NCBI RefSeq assembly: GCF_900220985.1
Contig: NZ_OCPC01000003.1
Span: 186,001 to 250,000, forward strand
Length of the DNA: 64,000 bases
Source: Parahoeflea halophila
Lineage (GTDB): Bacteria; Pseudomonadota; Alphaproteobacteria; Rhizobiales; Rhizobiaceae
Direction of reading: 5' to 3'
The notes under the pieces are model-generated. The model ran no database searches. It saw nothing but the letters and a program-made list of their open reading frames with translations, and was not told the DNA's origin. The position numbers and the translations under genes are program-made. Shown in pieces: positions 42,324 to 51,359 of the stretch (the stretch's first letter is position 1; each line of letters starts with the position of its first letter).

Positions 42324-42770
42324 GGCAGGTCCTGGTGATGGATAGATTTCGATAATCGCGAAGGCGATCCTCGACTCATATTAGACTCCGGGCCCTGAAA
42401 GTCGAGTAGCGCCGGCCCGATTGCCTCCGGACTGCCTGCCGGTCTCGTCCTTATCACTGCCGGGACCACCGAATTTGCGACACGAAACCATGCGGATCAG
42501 ATACATGCTTAACAAGTTGATAACCCGGCCGAGGTGCAAACGGTCCTCGCAACCGGCTAAATCCTGATAAATCGCCTCAGATTATGGAGAATTCGGCGCC
42601 TCGACACCACCCCACTCCCACTTCGGGTTGAAAACGAGGCCTGGACGCTATTTTCCTGTATTATCATGCCGTAACCCGCCACCGGGCCACGCGGGTTCAT
42701 CTTAACCCGCTGTCAGGAACCAGCGTGATAGCTTCCGTCCCACAATGGGAAAATGCGGGACATTCAAAAC
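42324..42770. other. Divergent coxL-like/pepN intergenic region
   Basis: About 447 bases with no convincing gene. Close to the hydroxylase start are two GACTC sites 11 bases apart (42373 and 42384). The middle is moderately AT-rich. Near pepN there is a three-part repeat AACCCGC-GCGGGTT-AACCCGC. It should contain promoters for both flanking genes, none of which is clear-cut. Confidence 0.5.
42673..42710 (+). repeat. Alternative-hairpin repeat ahead of pepN
   Basis: AACCCGC (42673-42679), GCGGGTT (42691-42697) and AACCCGC (42704-42710). The middle element can pair perfectly, over 7 bp, with either flank (loops of 11 and 6 bases), so two mutually exclusive hairpins are possible 60-100 bases before the pepN start. 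Confidence 0.55.
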
Positions 42771-45413
42771 ATGCGGACTGAGACGGGACAGGTGTACAAG
42801 CTCAAGGATTACAAGCCCACCGATTTCGTGGTCGAACGGATCGATCTGACATTTGAGCTTGACCCCAGCGAGACGAAGGTCGTCTCCAGGGTGATCCTTC
42901 ACCGTCGCGAGGGTGTGGCCGCGGATGCTGCTCTGGTGTTCGACGGTGACGAACTCACCCTCGACAGCGTGCAACTCGATGGCAACGATATCGATCCTTC
43001 GCTCTTCGACGTGGACGAGGAAAGCCTGACGATCCGTGGCTTGCCCGAAAGCGCACCGTTCGAGATCACCGTCAACACCACGCTGTCTCCCGACACCAAT
43101 ACCAAACTTATGGGGCTCTACCGCACCAACGGCGTGTATTGCACCCAGTGCGAGGCCGAAGGATTCCGCCGCATCACCTATTTCTATGACAGGCCGGATG
43201 TGCTGGCGGTCTACACCGTCACCATCATCGCCGCAAAGGACGATGCGAAGTACCTGTTGTCAAACGGGAACTTCCTGGGCAGCGGCAATTATGACGAAGG
43301 CCGCCATTTCGCCGCCTGGTTCGATCCTCACCCAAAACCCTCTTATCTGTTTGCCCTTGTGGGCGGCGATCTCGGCTTGGTCGAGGACACGTTCACCACC
43401 ATGAGCGGCAAGGAAGTGGCGCTGAAGATCTATGTCGAGCACGGCAAGGAAGGCCGCGCCGGTTACGCCATGGATGCGCTAAAACGCTCGATGAAGTGGG
43501 ACGAAGAGGTCTTCGGACGCGAATATGATCTCGATATCTTCCAGCTCGTCGCTGTGTCGGATTTCAACATGGGCGCGATGGAGAACAAGGGACTTAACGT
43601 CTTCAACGACAAATATGTGCTGGCCGACCCGGAAACCGCGACAGACGCCGATTATGCCAATATCGAAGCCATCATCGCGCATGAATATTTCCACAACTGG
43701 ACCGGCAACCGCATCACCTGCCGCGACTGGTTCCAGCTGTGCCTGAAGGAAGGTCTTACCGTCTACCGCGATCACGCTTTCTCGGCAGATCAGCGTTCGG
43801 CGGCGGTCAAACGGATTGCCGAGATCCGGCTTTTGAAAGCCCACCAGTTTCCCGAGGATGCCGGCCCGCTGGCGCATCCGGTTCGTCCCGAAACATATAA
43901 GGAAATCAACAATTTCTACACTGCAACAGTGTATGAGAAAGGTTCCGAAGTGGTGCGCATGATCCGCACCATTCTGGGGGCTGACGATTTCCGCAAAGGC
44001 ATGGATCTGTATTTCGAACGGCACGACGGCGATGCCTCGACGATCGAGGATTTCCTGGCTTGCTTTGCCGAAGCCAGTGGCCGCGACCTGAAGCAATTCG
44101 CCCTGTGGTACAGTCAGGCAGGCACGCCTTCCGTCTCGGTCTCGACCGACTGGAACGAAGCCGCGAAGTCCTTCAAGGTAACGCTCGAGCAGTCGCTGGC
44201 GCCGACGCCGGGCCAGTCCCGCAAGGCGCTGATGCACATCCCGCTGGCCTATGGCCTGATCCTGCCCGACGGCTCGGAGTTCAACGGTCAACCGCAGGGC
44301 GGCGAAGCCGGCAACGGTGTTTTCCATCTGACCAAGCGGAAGCAGACCTTCAGCTTTACCGATGTGCCGGGTCGGCCTGTGCTGTCGATCAACCGCGGCT
44401 TCTCGGCGCCGGTCAATATCGCCATGGAACAGAGTGCCGACGACCTTGCCCATATTGCGCGCCACGACAGCGATGGGGTGTCGCGCTGGCAGGCACTGAA
44501 CGAACAGGCCATGCGGCATCTTGTGGCGGTGTCCAAACTGGCGCGTGACGGCCGCAAGCTGCCCGCGGCGAAAGAACTGGCGAAGATCCTTGTCGACACC
44601 GCTGCCGACGAAAGCCTGGAGCCGGCTTTTCGCGCCCAGGCACTGGCCCTGCCCGCTGAGAGCGACATCGCGCGCGAGATCGGTTCCAACATCGATCCGG
44701 ACGCCATTCACACCGCACGGGAAGCAGTGCTTTCGGAAATAGCCACCGCCGGCCTCGCCGTCTTCAGCAAGCTGGCAGACCGTGCACCCACCGGCCCCTA
44801 CAGCCCGGCTGCAGAAGATGCCGGACTGCGGGCGCTTGCGGGTACGGCGTTGGCCTACGCCTCGATCGCCGAAGCTGAGCCGGTACGCGCCAAGGCTGCG
44901 TTTGATGCCAGCAACAACATGACGGCGATGACGCAGGCGTTGCAGATCCTGGTGCATCAGTTTCCCGGGTCAGACGAAGCCGAGGCGGCTCTGGCAGCGT
45001 TCAAGAGCCGGTTTGCGGGCGACGCTCTGGCGCTCGACAAATGGTATGCGATCCAGGCCATGGCGCCGGGTGCCGGCACTTCCGCCCGTGTCGAGGCGCT
45101 GCTCGAAAGCCCGGACTTCGACCGCAAGAACCCAAATCGCATGCGCGCCCTGATCGGCTCGTTCTCGGCAGGCAATCCGACCGGCTTCAACGCACCCGAC
45201 GGCGCAGGCTACCGGCTTCTTGCCCGTGAGGTCATCGACATCGACAAGCGCAATCCACAACTGGCTGCCCGCCTGCTCACTGCGATGCGGTCGTGGCGGT
45301 CGTTCGAGCCTCGACGGCAGAAGCTTGCACGGCAGGCGCTGGTGTCGATCCGCGAGGCCGGAAAGCTCTCCCCGGATGTCGGAGATATCATCGAGCGCAT
45401 GCTGGCTGACTGA
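42771..45413 (+). CDS. pepN: Aminopeptidase N (M1 family)
   Basis: A cytoplasmic zinc aminopeptidase of broad specificity, 880 residues. It has the substrate-anchoring GAMENKG and the zinc motif HEYFHNWTGNR, followed by the third ligand Glu in LCLKEGLTVYRD. A beta-sandwich and a long helical C-terminal domain follow, as in E. coli PepN. The start at 42771 gives MRTETGQVYKLKDY, matching the family; an ATG at 42753 is an alternative. A histidine kinase gene follows 280 bases downstream. Confidence 0.95.
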   Translation: MRTETGQVYKLKDYKPTDFVVERIDLTFELDPSETKVVSRVILHRREGVAADAALVFDGDELTLDSVQLDGNDIDPSLFDVDEESLTIRGLPESAPFEITVNTTLSPDTNTKLMGLYRTNGVYCTQCEAEGFRRITYFYDRPDVLAVYTVTIIAAKDDAKYLLSNGNFLGSGNYDEGRHFAAWFDPHPKPSYLFALVGGDLGLVEDTFTTMSGKEVALKIYVEHGKEGRAGYAMDALKRSMKWDEEVFGREYDLDIFQLVAVSDFNMGAMENKGLNVFNDKYVLADPETATDADYANIEAIIAHEYFHNWTGNRITCRDWFQLCLKEGLTVYRDHAFSADQRSAAVKRIAEIRLLKAHQFPEDAGPLAHPVRPETYKEINNFYTATVYEKGSEVVRMIRTILGADDFRKGMDLYFERHDGDASTIEDFLACFAEASGRDLKQFALWYSQAGTPSVSVSTDWNEAAKSFKVTLEQSLAPTPGQSRKALMHIPLAYGLILPDGSEFNGQPQGGEAGNGVFHLTKRKQTFSFTDVPGRPVLSINRGFSAPVNIAMEQSADDLAHIARHDSDGVSRWQALNEQAMRHLVAVSKLARDGRKLPAAKELAKILVDTAADESLEPAFRAQALALPAESDIAREIGSNIDPDAIHTAREAVLSEIATAGLAVFSKLADRAPTGPYSPAAEDAGLRALAGTALAYASIAEAEPVRAKAAFDASNNMTAMTQALQILVHQFPGSDEAEAALAAFKSRFAGDALALDKWYAIQAMAPGAGTSARVEALLESPDFDRKNPNRMRALIGSFSAGNPTGFNAPDGAGYRLLAREVIDIDKRNPQLAARLLTAMRSWRSFEPRRQKLARQALVSIREAGKLSPDVGDIIERMLAD

Positions 45414-45437
45414 TTCTTTCTTACAAATCGGCCATGT

Positions 45438-45478
45438 GCGCCTGCCCTGTTGTCCGGTTGGAACGGCGCGGCAGGCGC
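45438..45478 (+). terminator. Possible terminator hairpin after pepN
   Basis: Perfect 9 bp arms GCGCCTGCC (45438-45446) and GGCAGGCGC (45470-45478) with a 23-base interior, followed by GTTCTTG. The tail is poor in T, so termination is uncertain. Confidence 0.4.
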
Positions 45479-45586
45479 GTTCTTGCGCCGCCAGACAGGT
45501 GATTTGCGGACCCGGTGCCCCGTCCGGAGCATGAGACCTCTTCCGCAGCGCTCCGATTTTGGTGAAATGCAAGCAATTTCAAAATC

Positions 45587-45636
45587 TTAACGAATGGTTA
45601 CTTTTAGCACTGGACAAGCCGAATCACCTTTGATTC
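45587..45636 (+). promoter_or_regulatory. CtrA-like box and two GANTC sites ahead of the histidine kinase
   Basis: TTAA (45587-45590), 7 bases, then TTAC (45598-45601) matches the CtrA site TTAA-N7-TTAA at 7 of 8 positions. GAATC (45621) and GATTC (45632) are CcrM methylation sequences 11 bases apart. All lie 58-107 bases before the start codon. Function is inferred. Confidence 0.45.
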
Positions 45637-45693
45637 ACTAGGGCAGATCCGAAGATGCGGTAGTTCGGATGCTAACGGGGAAACAATTCAATT

Positions 45694-48036
45694 ATGGCGG
45701 ATGCGCAGCACCTACCTGCGGCCGGAGGGTCGAATCATGCTCGAAAACCTGGCGTAAAGCGCGCCGACGGGAGGCTGTCGGGTCACGCCAAGCTGTTCGC
45801 CCAACCGGCCTACGACCGGCTGATCAGTGCCGAGCCCTTTCTCAAGCGTCTCATTCCAGTGTTGATCGTTGCGTTTCTGGTGGTGGTCGCAGCGGCCCGC
45901 TACATGAACATCAGCGACTATCGAGACCGGCTTATGAATGCGGCGGAACACATCACGGCCCTGTCGCTGGCTGCCGCCCACGCAAGTCTTTCCACCGAGC
46001 TGAAGCCGGTCCAGCAATCCCTGCGCTGGGACACCGAGGCGCGCCTGAACCGTGCTGTAAGCGCCCTGCCCGACACCGCAGGCCGCTATCTGCTGGTGCT
46101 CAATGCTGAAAACCGGGCCTTTGCCGCGACCGCCGGCGGCTATCACCTCGTCGGCAGGCTGATGTCAACGCTGCTGCCCGAATCCTCGCCATTGCGCCTG
46201 TTCGGCGACCGGGCCGGGGTCCAGCAGATCAACCTCAATGGCGAGCAGGTGATGGCCGCCATGTCATTGCTGCCCGAAGGTGCCGGATCCGTGCTTTCTG
46301 TCACGCCGATCGCCGATATGAACGCGGCCTGGCGGCAGTCGGTCTCGGTCAATGTGACATTGTTCATCGCCACCTCCTCGATCCTGCTCGTCATACTCTA
46401 CGCCTATTTCAGCCAAGCGGGCCGTGCTCAGGAAGCCGACGAGATCTATCTCGAGAGCCACCGCCGCGTCGACATGGCGCTGTCGCGCGGACGCTGCGGG
46501 CTGTGGGATTGGGACATGGCGCGAGGAAGGCTCTATTGGTCGCGATCCATGTACGAGATCCTCGGGCTCCCGCCGCGCGACAGCGTAATCTCGTTCGGCG
46601 AGGCCTCGTGTCTGATCCATCCGGACGACGGCGACCTCTACGAAATCGCGCAAAAGGTGGCGAGCGGTGAAATAAAGCAGGTCGATCAGCTGTTTCGCAT
46701 GCGCCATGCAGATGGCCATTATGTCTGGATGCGGGCCCGGGCACAGGTCGTCGACCCCACCTCGGCCCAGACCCACCTGATCGGCATAGCCATGGATGTC
46801 ACCGAGCAGCACCGCCTGCAGCAGCGCACCGCAGAGGCCGACCAGCGCCTGTTCGACGCCATCGAAAGCACATCGGAAGCCTTTGTGTTGTGGGACCGAA
46901 ACGACCGGCTGGTTTTGTGGAACAAGCACTACCAGGAAATTCACGGCCTTCCCGCAGACAGCCTGGCGCCTGGCACGCCGCGCGAAACTGTCGAAGCGGC
47001 AGCCACACGACCGGTCGTCGAACGGCGACTGGCTGTCCCCTGCTCCAAGGGCCTGGCGCAGACCTATGAGGTCCAGCTCTGCGACGGACGATGGATGCAG
47101 ATCAACGAACGCCAGACGCGCGACGGCGGGCAGGTTTCGGTGGGAACAGACATCACGCCGCTGAAGCGCAACCAGGAACGCCTGCGCGAAAGCGAGAAAC
47201 GGCTGATGGCCACCATCGGCGACCTAACCGCATCGCAAAACGAACTCGAACGCAAGGCCGCGGAGCTGTCTGAACTCAACAGGGATTACCAGATCGAGAC
47301 CGAACGGGCGGAAGCGGCAAACAAGGCAAAATCAGAGTTCCTTGCCAATATGAGCCACGAGCTGAGAACGCCGCTCAACGCCATCATCGGCTTTTCCGAA
47401 GTGCTGCAGGCGCGCATGTTCGGGCCGCTGGGATCGGACAAGTATTCCGAATATGCCGACGACATCCACAATTCCGGCATCCACCTTCTGACCGTCATCA
47501 ACGACATTCTCGACATGGCCAAGATCGAAGCCGGGCAAATGCGCATTCATTGCCAGCAGGTCGATATGGCGCCGCTGCTCGACGAGGCTCTGAGGCTGGT
47601 TGCCATCCAGGCCGAAAAAAAGGGCATCGAGGTTCACCAGAAGATCTCGAAACACCTGTCGCTGAACGCGGACCGGCGGGCGATGAAACAGATCCTGCTC
47701 AATCTTTTGTCCAACGCCGTAAAGTTCACGGAAGCTGGCGGCCGGATCATGGTGCGGGCGCGCAAGACATCCTGCGCGGTGACCGTCAGCATCGAAGACA
47801 CAGGCATCGGCATACCCAAGGCGCTGCTCAGCCGGATCGGCCAGCCGTTCGAACAGGTACAGAACCAGTTCTCGAAATCCACCGGAGGCTCAGGCCTGGG
47901 CCTGGCAATCTCGCGCAGCCTTGCCGAACTGCACGGCGGTGCGATGAAAGTCCGCTCCAAGGAGGGTATCGGCACCATCGTCAGCATCCGGATGCCGCTC
48001 GAATGCTGCGAAGACCGTCCGGCCACGGCGGCGTAG
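45694..48036 (+). CDS. PleC/DivJ/PdhS-type PAS sensor histidine kinase
   Basis: A 780-residue membrane sensor kinase. Two membrane helices (about 50-70 and 220-240) bracket a periplasmic domain of about 150 residues; two PAS domains follow (about 262-380 and 385-495), then a coiled coil, the H box SHELRTPLNAIIGFSE with His near 555, and a HATPase domain (NLLSNAVKFTE, DTGIGIP, GGSGLGLAI). The segment after the His (MFGPLGSDKYSEYADDIHNSG and INDILDMAKIEAG) is typical of the kinases that address the cell-cycle regulator DivK. PleC is the likeliest orthologue by architecture; this needs a tree. Confidence 0.85.
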   Translation: MADAQHLPAAGGSNHARKPGVKRADGRLSGHAKLFAQPAYDRLISAEPFLKRLIPVLIVAFLVVVAAARYMNISDYRDRLMNAAEHITALSLAAAHASLSTELKPVQQSLRWDTEARLNRAVSALPDTAGRYLLVLNAENRAFAATAGGYHLVGRLMSTLLPESSPLRLFGDRAGVQQINLNGEQVMAAMSLLPEGAGSVLSVTPIADMNAAWRQSVSVNVTLFIATSSILLVILYAYFSQAGRAQEADEIYLESHRRVDMALSRGRCGLWDWDMARGRLYWSRSMYEILGLPPRDSVISFGEASCLIHPDDGDLYEIAQKVASGEIKQVDQLFRMRHADGHYVWMRARAQVVDPTSAQTHLIGIAMDVTEQHRLQQRTAEADQRLFDAIESTSEAFVLWDRNDRLVLWNKHYQEIHGLPADSLAPGTPRETVEAAATRPVVERRLAVPCSKGLAQTYEVQLCDGRWMQINERQTRDGGQVSVGTDITPLKRNQERLRESEKRLMATIGDLTASQNELERKAAELSELNRDYQIETERAEAANKAKSEFLANMSHELRTPLNAIIGFSEVLQARMFGPLGSDKYSEYADDIHNSGIHLLTVINDILDMAKIEAGQMRIHCQQVDMAPLLDEALRLVAIQAEKKGIEVHQKISKHLSLNADRRAMKQILLNLLSNAVKFTEAGGRIMVRARKTSCAVTVSIEDTGIGIPKALLSRIGQPFEQVQNQFSKSTGGSGLGLAISRSLAELHGGAMKVRSKEGIGTIVSIRMPLECCEDRPATAA

Positions 48037-49447: not shown

Positions 49448-51268
49448 TCAGGCCGCGCGAGACTGGCGCTGCTGTGCTCCACCGGCCTGTGGCAAACGGA
49501 AGTTGCGCAGCATGGAATTGAGCTGGCCGCTTTCCTGCGTCAGGGTCAAGCTGGCTGCACTGGTCTCTTCGACCATGGCCGCGTTCTGCTGGGTCATCTG
49601 GTCCATCTGATTGACCGCAGTGTTGACCTCGGCCAGGGCGCTGGCCTGTTCCTGCGCTGCAGTGGCAATCGAATTGACCTGTTCGTTGACTTGATTCACG
49701 AAGCGCTCGATTTCAGAGAGCGCATCTCCGGTGGACTGAACCAGCGACACGCCGTTCTGAACTTCGTTGGCCGAACTGGAAATCAACTGCTTGATTTCCT
49801 GTGCGGCTGTCGCCGAACGCTGAGCCAGTTCACGCACTTCCTGGGCGACCACAGCAAAGCCACGGCCGGCCTCACCGGCACGGGCTGCTTCAACACCCGC
49901 GTTGAGCGCAAGCAGGTTGGTCTGGAAAGCGATCTCGTCGATCACGCCGATGATCTTGCCGATGCGGTCGGACTCATCCTTGATCCGGTTCATCGCGGTG
50001 ATCGCCTCGTTGACGATCTTGCCTGACTTGCTGGTGCTCTGGCGGGTTTCGCCAACCATGCGGTTGGCCTCGGAGGCACGCTCGGAGGAGCTGCGAACGG
50101 TCGAGGTAATCTCGTCCAGAGCCGCAGCGGTTTCCTCGAGCGAAGCCGCCTGTTGTTCAGTCCGGAGCGAAAGGTTGTTTGCGGCTTCGGCGATCCCGTC
50201 GGCGCTGGCGTTGACCACGTCGGTCGACTGCGCAATTGACACGATGACGCTGCCCAGCGCGTTGACCGCCTGGTTGAAATCATCCCGCAGCTTGGCGTAT
50301 TCCGGCGAGATGTTGTCGATCTGCACCGTCAGGTCGCCGCTCGCAAGCTTCTCCAATGCACCGCCGAGCTTGGCCATGACATCGGCCTGTGACTGGCTGA
50401 TGTTCTGCTGACGCCGGACACCATCTTCCCGCTCGGCATCGAGCTGCTGCTGCTGCTCAGCTTCGCGTGCACGCATCTCGGCGCGTTCCCGGACTGAATC
50501 CCGCAGCACCAGAACTGAGGCTGCCATCTCGCCCACCTCATCCTTGCGCTCGGCTTCAGGAACCTCGCCACTGACATCCTCGCGGGCAATATCCTGCATG
50601 GTGGCGTTAAGTCTGCGAATCGGGGTGACGACGCTGCGAACCACAGCCCATGCAACCAGAAGGATCGCCAAGGCGCCGAAGCCCAGGATGACCGCGGTGT
50701 TGGTTGCATTGTTCTTGAACAACGCCGCCAGGTCGTCGGCGTAAACACCGGTGCCTACAATCCACCCCCAAGGCGCAAAACCTTCCACATGGGAGTACTT
50801 GAGAACTGGTTCTTCGGCTCCCGGCTTGGGCCAATGGTAATCGACATAGCCTTCCCCGTCGGCCTGCACGACTTTCACCATCTCCTGGAAGATGAACTTG
50901 CCCGTCGGATCTTTCAGGTCGCCCAGATTCTGGCCTTCCAGCGCCGGCTTGATTGGATGCATGACCATGACTTTATTCATGTCATTGATCCAGAAGTAAC
51001 CATCAGCCTCATAGCGCATCGGGCGAACTGCCTCGATGGCACGACTTTGGGCCTCCTCGCGCGTCAAAGCGCCCGAGGTTTCGAGGCTGTGAAAATGTTC
51101 CAGCATCGCAATGACGCTTTCGTCAAGCGCATTGAGCTTGGCCTTGCGCTCCGCAACCATCGCATTCTGAGAATCATACAGCTTGTAGACGGCAGCTGCC
51201 GCAAACACCGCCAAAGCCAGACCTACGAGGAAATACAGCCTCGTGGAAATCTTGAAGTTACCCATCAT
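49448..51268 (-). CDS. Methyl-accepting chemotaxis protein with single Cache domain
   Basis: A 606-residue chemoreceptor. A first membrane helix (about 10-28) is followed by a periplasmic single-Cache sensor (about 35-185; [16 protein letters not shown] is characteristic), a second helix (about 190-212), a HAMP domain (about 210-265), a glutamine-rich coiled coil, and the signalling domain with the hairpin tip [22 protein letters not shown]. No CheB/CheR-binding pentapeptide is obvious at the C-terminus. The ligand is unknown. Start at 51268, or one codon later. Confidence 0.92.
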
Positions 51269-51359
51269 TGCCTGAACCGATCCTTGATAAACTAAAGGCT
51301 AGTGATCGAGGAAACTCGCAAACTAATCTTAATTTTACATAAATTGGCCGGGACAATAA

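Follow-up and report, generated by a model that had tools for sequence, protein, structure and literature searches.

A conserved GANTC-bearing block upstream of a pleC-type histidine kinase gene of Parahoeflea halophila is a putative promoter under GcrA/CcrM and CtrA control

Is a kinase that helps to set CtrA activity itself expressed under the control of the circuit in which it acts? This question is raised by a pleC-type histidine kinase gene of Parahoeflea halophila, which lies within the 64-kb stretch of DNA analysed here (hereafter the window) and is separated from pepN by a 280-bp gap that holds a CtrA-like box and two GANTC sites. Work on Caulobacter has established what GcrA, CcrM, DivK and PleC do. 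An initial annotation of this DNA proposed that the kinase gene may sit in a feedback loop under both CtrA and methylation control. We infer, at a probability of roughly 0.7, that the region is the pleC promoter and that it is controlled by GcrA/CcrM and by CtrA. The box and both GANTC sites were recovered at the positions first assigned to them, ahead of the kinase start at 45694; the -35-like TGGACA, the lost third GANTC and the leader hairpin are further features that the initial annotation did not contain (Table 1).

Table 1. Features of the pepN-pleC region, in coordinates of the window
Feature	Position	Strand	Basis or remark
pepN, aminopeptidase N, neighbour 5' of the kinase gene	42753..45413	+ (shared direction)	TIGR02414
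CtrA-like box TTAACGAATGGTTAC, TTAA-N7-TTAC	45587..45601	.	1 mismatch vs TTAA-N7-TTAA; starts 24 bp 5' of TGGACA
Conserved block, from the -35 through the spacer (two GANTC), the -10 and the start region to the leader hairpin	45610..45671	+	genus alignment
-35-like hexamer TGGACA (order-wide TGGACA / TAGACA)	45611..45616	+	putative -35 role
GANTC site 1, GAATC	45621..45625	.	CGAATCA at 45620-45626 is TGATTCG on the minus strand and fits YGAKTCK
GANTC site 2, GATTC	45632..45636	.	overlaps the predicted -10
Predicted -10 hexamer TTCACT, 17-bp spacer	45634..45639	+	predicted from spacing
Third GANTC, lost (GATCC); predicted transcription start region	45646..45650	+	putative start position
Leader hairpin GATCCGA-AGATGCGGTAGT-TCGGATG; the window lacks the outermost pair	45646..45671	+	compensatory changes in relatives
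Histidine kinase gene, pleC-type, 780 aa, PAS_3 + PAS_7 + HisKA + HATPase_c	45694..48036	+	domain matches, tree

Inside the window alone, the motif counts are within chance. TTAA-N7-TTAA with at most one mismatch occurs at three sites (1.9 expected), and two GANTC pairs have starts no more than 11 bp apart, compared with 1.3 expected at the window's density of GANTC, a motif that is itself strongly under-represented (86 observed vs 303 in shuffles). A sigma-70-type consensus scan of 45400-45800 gave no match. The second of the two close GANTC pairs consists of GACTC at 42373 and at 42384, a distance of 11 bp, in the interval 42324-42752 between pepN (start 42753) and a divergent ORF (start 42323, minus strand) that by eye resembles a xanthine-dehydrogenase-type oxidoreductase, and the same interval contains the CtrA-like box TTAACAAGTTGATAA at 42509-42523. 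The third box of the window, TTAATTTTACATAAA at 51329-51343, is found about 60 bp 5' of an ORF on the minus strand (49448-51268) resembling, again by eye, a methyl-accepting chemotaxis protein; the promoter of mcpZ is reported to be bound by CtrA in S. meliloti (PMC4433202).

The kinase itself is very likely PleC, as judged from its grouping in a tree, its architecture and elimination of the alternatives in the genome. It carries the Pfam domains PAS_3 (residues 280-366), PAS_7 (390-494), HisKA (545-614) and HATPase_c (660-770), and the translated HisKA region contains FGPLGSDKYSEYADDI, SHELRTPLN and the PdhS-type motif. With its PAS-PAS-HisKA-HATPase order and its FGPLG..KY..Y..DI motif it appears to be an ordinary member of the PleC/DivJ/PdhS kinases, in which no unusual domains were seen. 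Tandem PAS domains ahead of the kinase core, an architecture that we take to mark PleC, were also found in one Rhizobium and one Mesorhizobium orthologue. Two hydrophobic stretches are visible by eye near residues 53-69 and 220-238.

Four inspected matches of the genome carry variants of the PdhS-type HisKA motif, namely the window kinase and the loci L002, L003 and L004. Residues 150-680 of L002 align with positions 13-520 of the 531 of the Caulobacter DivJ model, below the curated cut-off, and L003 is closest to PdhS (689 bits, likewise below the curated cut-off). The best NCBIfam match of the window kinase is DivJ, at 249 bits over the kinase core only and against a cut-off of 1000, and the 25 of 84 NCBIfam families listed for it include no PleC model. 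In a tree of 46 chosen loci, built without an experimentally characterised PleC sequence, the window kinase falls into a 27-row clade together with orthologues from many families, one Caulobacteraceae locus (L075) and one Hyphomonadaceae locus (L074), with a support of 87/89 that is moderate and below the mark for strong support; L002, L003 and L004 all fall outside this clade. The initial assignment to the PleC/DivJ/PdhS type is thus upheld by a moderately supported grouping with PleC-type kinases, and a position outside the PleC/DivJ/PdhS clade, which had been named as the outcome speaking against it, was not obtained. At E <= 1e-100, one match each was present in 107 of the 130 genomes of the order, with some of the weaker matches spanning the kinase core only.

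In order to compare the DNA upstream of these orthologues, regions were fetched for 94 of the 106 places besides that of the window, leaving out those matching only the later part of the query (G027, G032, G035, G054, G057, G083, G097, G099, G120, G134, G147 and G152). One further region, cut to 101 bp by a contig end (G071), was dropped, so that 93 were usable; anchoring succeeded for 88 of them when up to two substitutions were allowed and for 85 when TRGACA had to be exact. All 18 genomes of the genus share the core CTGGACAAG.(C/A)GAATCA.CTTTGATTCA, and a third GANTC follows shortly 3' of it in 16, the exceptions being the window (GATCC) and L013. The whole block, beyond the GANTC sites alone, is nearly invariant in these genomes.

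Across the order (Hyphomicrobiales), T(G/A)GACA-N10..18-GANTC-N7..13-GANTC was found exactly in 72 of the 93 upstream regions, the exact core being missing from the other 21; allowing one substitution raises the count to 82. The exact elements are spaced by 14 or 15 and then by 9 to 13 bp, which gives the block the general form T(G/A)GACA-N14/15-GANTC-N9..13-GANTCG. The reverse strand yielded no exact match and two within one substitution, and 20 dinucleotide-shuffle sets yielded 0-1 and 0-3, respectively. The exact core is distributed over 32 of 37 families (34 within one substitution), including loci of Rhizobium lusitanum, Ciceribacter, Mesorhizobium, Roseibium, Methylocystis and Methyloceanibacter. 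A lack of conservation in close relatives, which the initial annotation had named as an outcome speaking against it, was thus not observed for the GANTC pair.

The genome-wide counts, which cover a narrower form of the core in the organism's own order, place it in 16 of 130 genomes (the own genome included), once per genome and in all 16 cases directly 5' of this kinase; the backwards control had no match in the 130 genomes. A motif common to many genes is thereby ruled out for the narrow form. The bare pair GAATC-N6-GATTC is not unique, being present at three sites of the own genome. A pattern built on the form of site 3 was searched across the class and matched 0 of 190 genomes (backwards control 1), a sample in which three genomes belong to the own order and members need not all have pleC, and with a pattern that would fit at most 50 of the 93 in-order regions. 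Besides the core, 13 of 18 genus members carry GACTCGA 30-90 bp 5' of it, often as GACTCGAATC with two overlapping GANTC, where the window has GCGCTCCGATTT at about 45548-45559. Another stretch, GTGATTTGC (45499-45507 in the window), is kept 60-180 bp 5' of the core in 12 of 18 members.

The substitutions at the GANTC sites differ in their distribution. At site 2, 21 changes fall on the free N and 1-2 on every other position (n = 85), as expected of a CcrM site; site 1 is GANTC in 39 of 85 elements, with N being T, A, G or C (24, 6, 6 and 3); and the changes at site 3 are distributed evenly among the five positions (6, 4, 3, 2 and 3). For these counts, every element was aligned by its exact T(G/A)GACA and site 1 was included only if it had a GANTC; they lean towards GANTC because the sites were located with a GA.TC pattern. 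The extended form YGAKTCK, at its best TGATTCG, has been described as the methylated GANTC form of presumed GcrA activation in Caulobacter (PMC7987155, PMC8725594), and no preference for an extended GcrA motif is reported for Brevundimonas (PMC7987155). Outside the window's genus, site 3 follows this form (YGATTCG) in 70 of the 72 exact elements. The 16 genus members that keep site 3 have AGATTCG, which does not fit, and the window has lost the site; CGAATCA at site 1, found in 17 of 18 members, corresponds to YGAKTCK on the minus strand, and site 1 alone fits the extended form within the genus.

In Caulobacter, pleC is listed among 80 loci with CcrM-dependent GcrA binding (PMC3667746). Promoters of that species with GANTC between -10 and -35 are reported to be activated at 40-60 min, those with GANTC outside these elements to have their lowest level at 40-60 min, and a third group with evenly spread GANTC to peak at 80-100 min (PMC4287350). 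A promoter of the GcrA/CcrM type would be expected to have GANTC within -40..+40 of its start; in the window, the sites at 45621 and 45632 are to be compared with a predicted start near 45646. A 2010 survey of GANTC and GcrA sites draws no conclusion on methylation control, and clpX is the sole gene for which it names a GcrA site in the majority of organisms (PMC2877005), and GANTC is described as not enriched in the promoters of Ensifer cell cycle genes (PMC8725594).

The same genome encodes all three trans-acting factors. GcrA (L232) matches PF07750 with 203.6 bits, above the cut-off of that family, and the NCBIfam model with 154.8 bits, below its cut-off of 280. CcrM (L239) is the sole match to PF01555 (N6/N4 methylase family), matches 6pbd at 1.7e-168 and reaches 638 bits against an NCBIfam cut-off of 830, while CtrA (L245) exceeds the NCBIfam cut-off. 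GcrA and CcrM also match PDB chains of the solved Caulobacter proteins.

CtrA boxes are enriched upstream of the orthologues without being universal. In the 70 bp 5' of the -35, boxes with at most one mismatch occur in 31 of 88 regions (4.5 expected, highest of 50 shuffle sets 9), exact TTAA-N7-TTAA in 9 of 88 (0.3 expected) and TTAACCA or its complement in 16 of 88 (0.7 expected), with 27 of the 31 boxes starting 18-37 bp 5' of the -35. Two control windows at 140-280 bp upstream and two downstream are at background, and the window at 70-140 bp upstream is slightly raised (6 vs 1.2). With one genome per family, the box is kept in about 12 of 36 (0.4 in the control window). The CtrA-like site of the initial annotation is of a kind enriched ahead of this gene, and at the same time it is kept in only a part of the relatives, since in the genus 8 of 18 members have it with at most one mismatch and 17 of 18 retain the left TTAA half. 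Overall the initial observation stands, on firmer ground than its annotation could know in the case of the GANTC sites and on weaker ground in that of the CtrA box.

CtrA has been reported to bind the pleC promoter in Brucella abortus (cited in PMC2877005) and, by ChIP-seq, in S. meliloti (PMC4433202), where a CtrA motif is described 5' of the pleC start (PMC3616915). Depletion of CtrA in S. meliloti is reported to cause no significant change of pleC expression (PMC4433202), which counts against a simple feedback loop. In our view, a CtrA input at pleC is likely in general and plausible in Parahoeflea halophila. The loop under dual control that had been proposed for this gene is favoured by the conserved GANTC pair and by the presence of CtrA, GcrA and CcrM, but is called into question by the S. 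meliloti depletion result.

We posit that transcription may proceed from a core promoter of the sigma-70 type with a weak -35 (TGGACA) and -10 (TTCACT). CcrM sites would lie within its spacer and overlap its -10, and most relatives would have one more at the predicted start. Replication would render these sites hemimethylated until CcrM remethylates them later, and GcrA, as a sigma-70 cofactor preferring methylated YGAKTCK, might tune initiation according to the methylation state. Phosphorylated CtrA at the box centred near -52 could provide a second input that is phased with the cell cycle. PleC would in turn act on DivK and thereby on CtrA activity, which would place pleC inside a circuit under its own control. 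The start site, the methylation, the binding and the direction of the effect at pleC are all putative here, and the loop is supported piecewise in Brucella, Sinorhizobium and Caulobacter, so that dual control of pleC would join published pieces.

The bases at the predicted start also seem to form one arm of a hairpin in the leader. In the genus, the leader reads GATTCGG-AGATGCGGTAGT-CCGGATC from site 3 onwards, and paired changes preserve most of the helix both in L013 (GATCCAG...CTGGATC) and in the window (GATCCGA...TCGGATG). Among 14 distinct sequences, drawn from the genus and from two other genera, 96.9% of the cells pair (93.8 in shuffles), double changes affect two pairs (17 of 500 shuffles have as many) and covariation is 0.248 compared with 0.173 in shuffles (0 of 500 as high), although related sequences can surpass shuffles of this kind even when unstructured; by their number of pair types the leaders do not stand out from shuffles (474 of 500 as high). 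The underlying alignment held 20 of 21 sequences, L030 being excluded for its differing arms. Order-wide, pairing of the first 13 bases with a downstream stretch gives a best-helix score of 14.0 (n = 88), compared with 11.6 in shuffles and 12.0 (highest 12.4) when arms are swapped between genomes, and at four other offsets the observed score differs from the shuffled one by -0.2, +0.8, +0.3 and +0.5. With one genome per family the score is 13.9 (lowest draw 13.4) and the swap maxima average 12.7 (highest 13.4), such that the ranges just touch.

A covariance model of 20 aligned leaders was run on 91 of the 94 upstream regions from other genomes, the set without L156, L160 and L231. It found 13 matches at E < 0.005, of which 12 begin exactly at site 3 on the sense strand, with a score that is partly plain sequence (GATTCGG). 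Searched against whole genomes, the model returned the pleC leader as best match in 18 of 18 genus genomes (others there at most 22.5 bits) and in 20 of 41 genomes altogether, all of them contributors to the model; one match lies elsewhere in G034 (E 5e-4). TGCGG is contained in 28 of 88 leaders (6.0 expected, highest 12). Folding energy, considered as further evidence for the hairpin, is ordinary (z of the window +0.26, mean z -0.36) and was set aside, and membership in a known RNA family was rejected after no Rfam match at gathering score appeared in seven loci; the stretch 45400-45900 has two weak sub-threshold Rfam matches. We consider the hairpin as such probable from these alignments, while its place in the mRNA hinges on the predicted start.

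Several explanations other than methylation control may be considered for this conservation. Chance co-occurrence of short elements, which the initial annotation had feared, agrees with the counts inside the window, but it is rejected for the GANTC pair because the core is conserved in 32 of 37 families in the face of shuffle and strand controls, and we regard it as very improbable. It is more conceivable, if still unlikely, that the block merely provides pleC with an ordinary, constitutive sigma-70 promoter or binds some pleC-specific factor, with incidental GANTC and irrelevant methylation. The near-invariance of the whole block in the genus and the even spread of changes at site 3 would suit this explanation, and a dedicated factor would equally give a narrow form that is specific to the kinase gene and lacks a regulon. 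A fixed protein site would not predict the concentration of site 2 changes on the free N, and site 3 follows the GcrA-preferred YGATTCG outside the window's genus, but some bias remains in this counter-evidence from locating the sites with the GA.TC pattern.

Part of the conservation may instead stem from a 5'-leader RNA hairpin that starts at the predicted first mRNA base, often with a UGCGG loop, and acts on stability, translation, a small RNA or a protein independently of methylation. This is possible, at somewhat less than even odds, and is compatible with GcrA/CcrM and CtrA control of the promoter. The compensatory changes at two pairs with their covariation, the order-wide helix score, the covariance matches starting at site 3 and the enriched TGCGG speak for such a leader, but its folding energy is ordinary, the number of pair types does not exceed that of shuffles, the margin narrows with one genome per family, the model score owes a part to plain sequence, the whole-genome search recovers the pleC leader only in model-building genomes and Rfam holds no match. 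In S. meliloti, the pleC transcript is reported to drop upon overproduction of the small RNA EcpR1 and to rise in an EcpR1 mutant, but the predicted pairing covers the pleC start codon and a pleC fusion was described as not regulated (PMC4414408); EcpR1 is hence unsupported as reader of the leader hairpin. More tentatively, and as a rather doubtful extension, the two explanations might be combined in an order-wide composite element, in which the methylation-sensed DNA at the start site doubles as the 5' arm of the leader hairpin and replication-coupled methylation and a post-transcriptional signal share the same bases. The GANTC is lost and the hairpin kept in a few lineages, namely the window, L013 and, by eye, also L030.

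With control by GcrA/CcrM and CtrA as the preferred reading, the locus resembles the GcrA/CcrM promoters of Caulobacter in its GANTC sites in the predicted -10/-35 region and their YGAKTCK form (PMC3667746, PMC4287350). It differs from them in that two to three GANTC form a fixed array ahead of one gene that is conserved across another order, and in that the window's genus carries the extended form at site 1 and on the minus strand. As in the Caulobacter system, the genome encodes GcrA, CcrM and a PleC-type kinase. With the pleC promoters of Brucella abortus and Sinorhizobium meliloti it shares the CtrA motif upstream of the pleC start (PMC2877005, PMC4433202, PMC3616915), whereas here the box and the GANTC core are described together, and the form of the box varies between genera. 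Neither the composite architecture nor the leader hairpin was found described in the open-access literature searched. If the preferred reading is true, one of the kinases setting CtrA activity would itself be under replication-coupled methylation control, by an element whose conservation over many families is unusual among bacterial promoters. The element would also offer a single sequence-defined site at which the joint timing of PleC by GcrA/CcrM and CtrA can be addressed outside Caulobacter.

The locus would further draw attention to an uncharacterised hairpin in the 5' leader of a central cell cycle mRNA, and two individual leaders deserve mention in this regard. In L030 (genome G019), site 3 has been lost (GATCG) and the arms CGCGATCG...CGACGCG by eye still seem to be complementary. 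In L227 (genome G106), the covariance model places a hairpin at 235-268 (E 0.002), upstream of an orthologue for which the search for the core promoter pattern gave no match.
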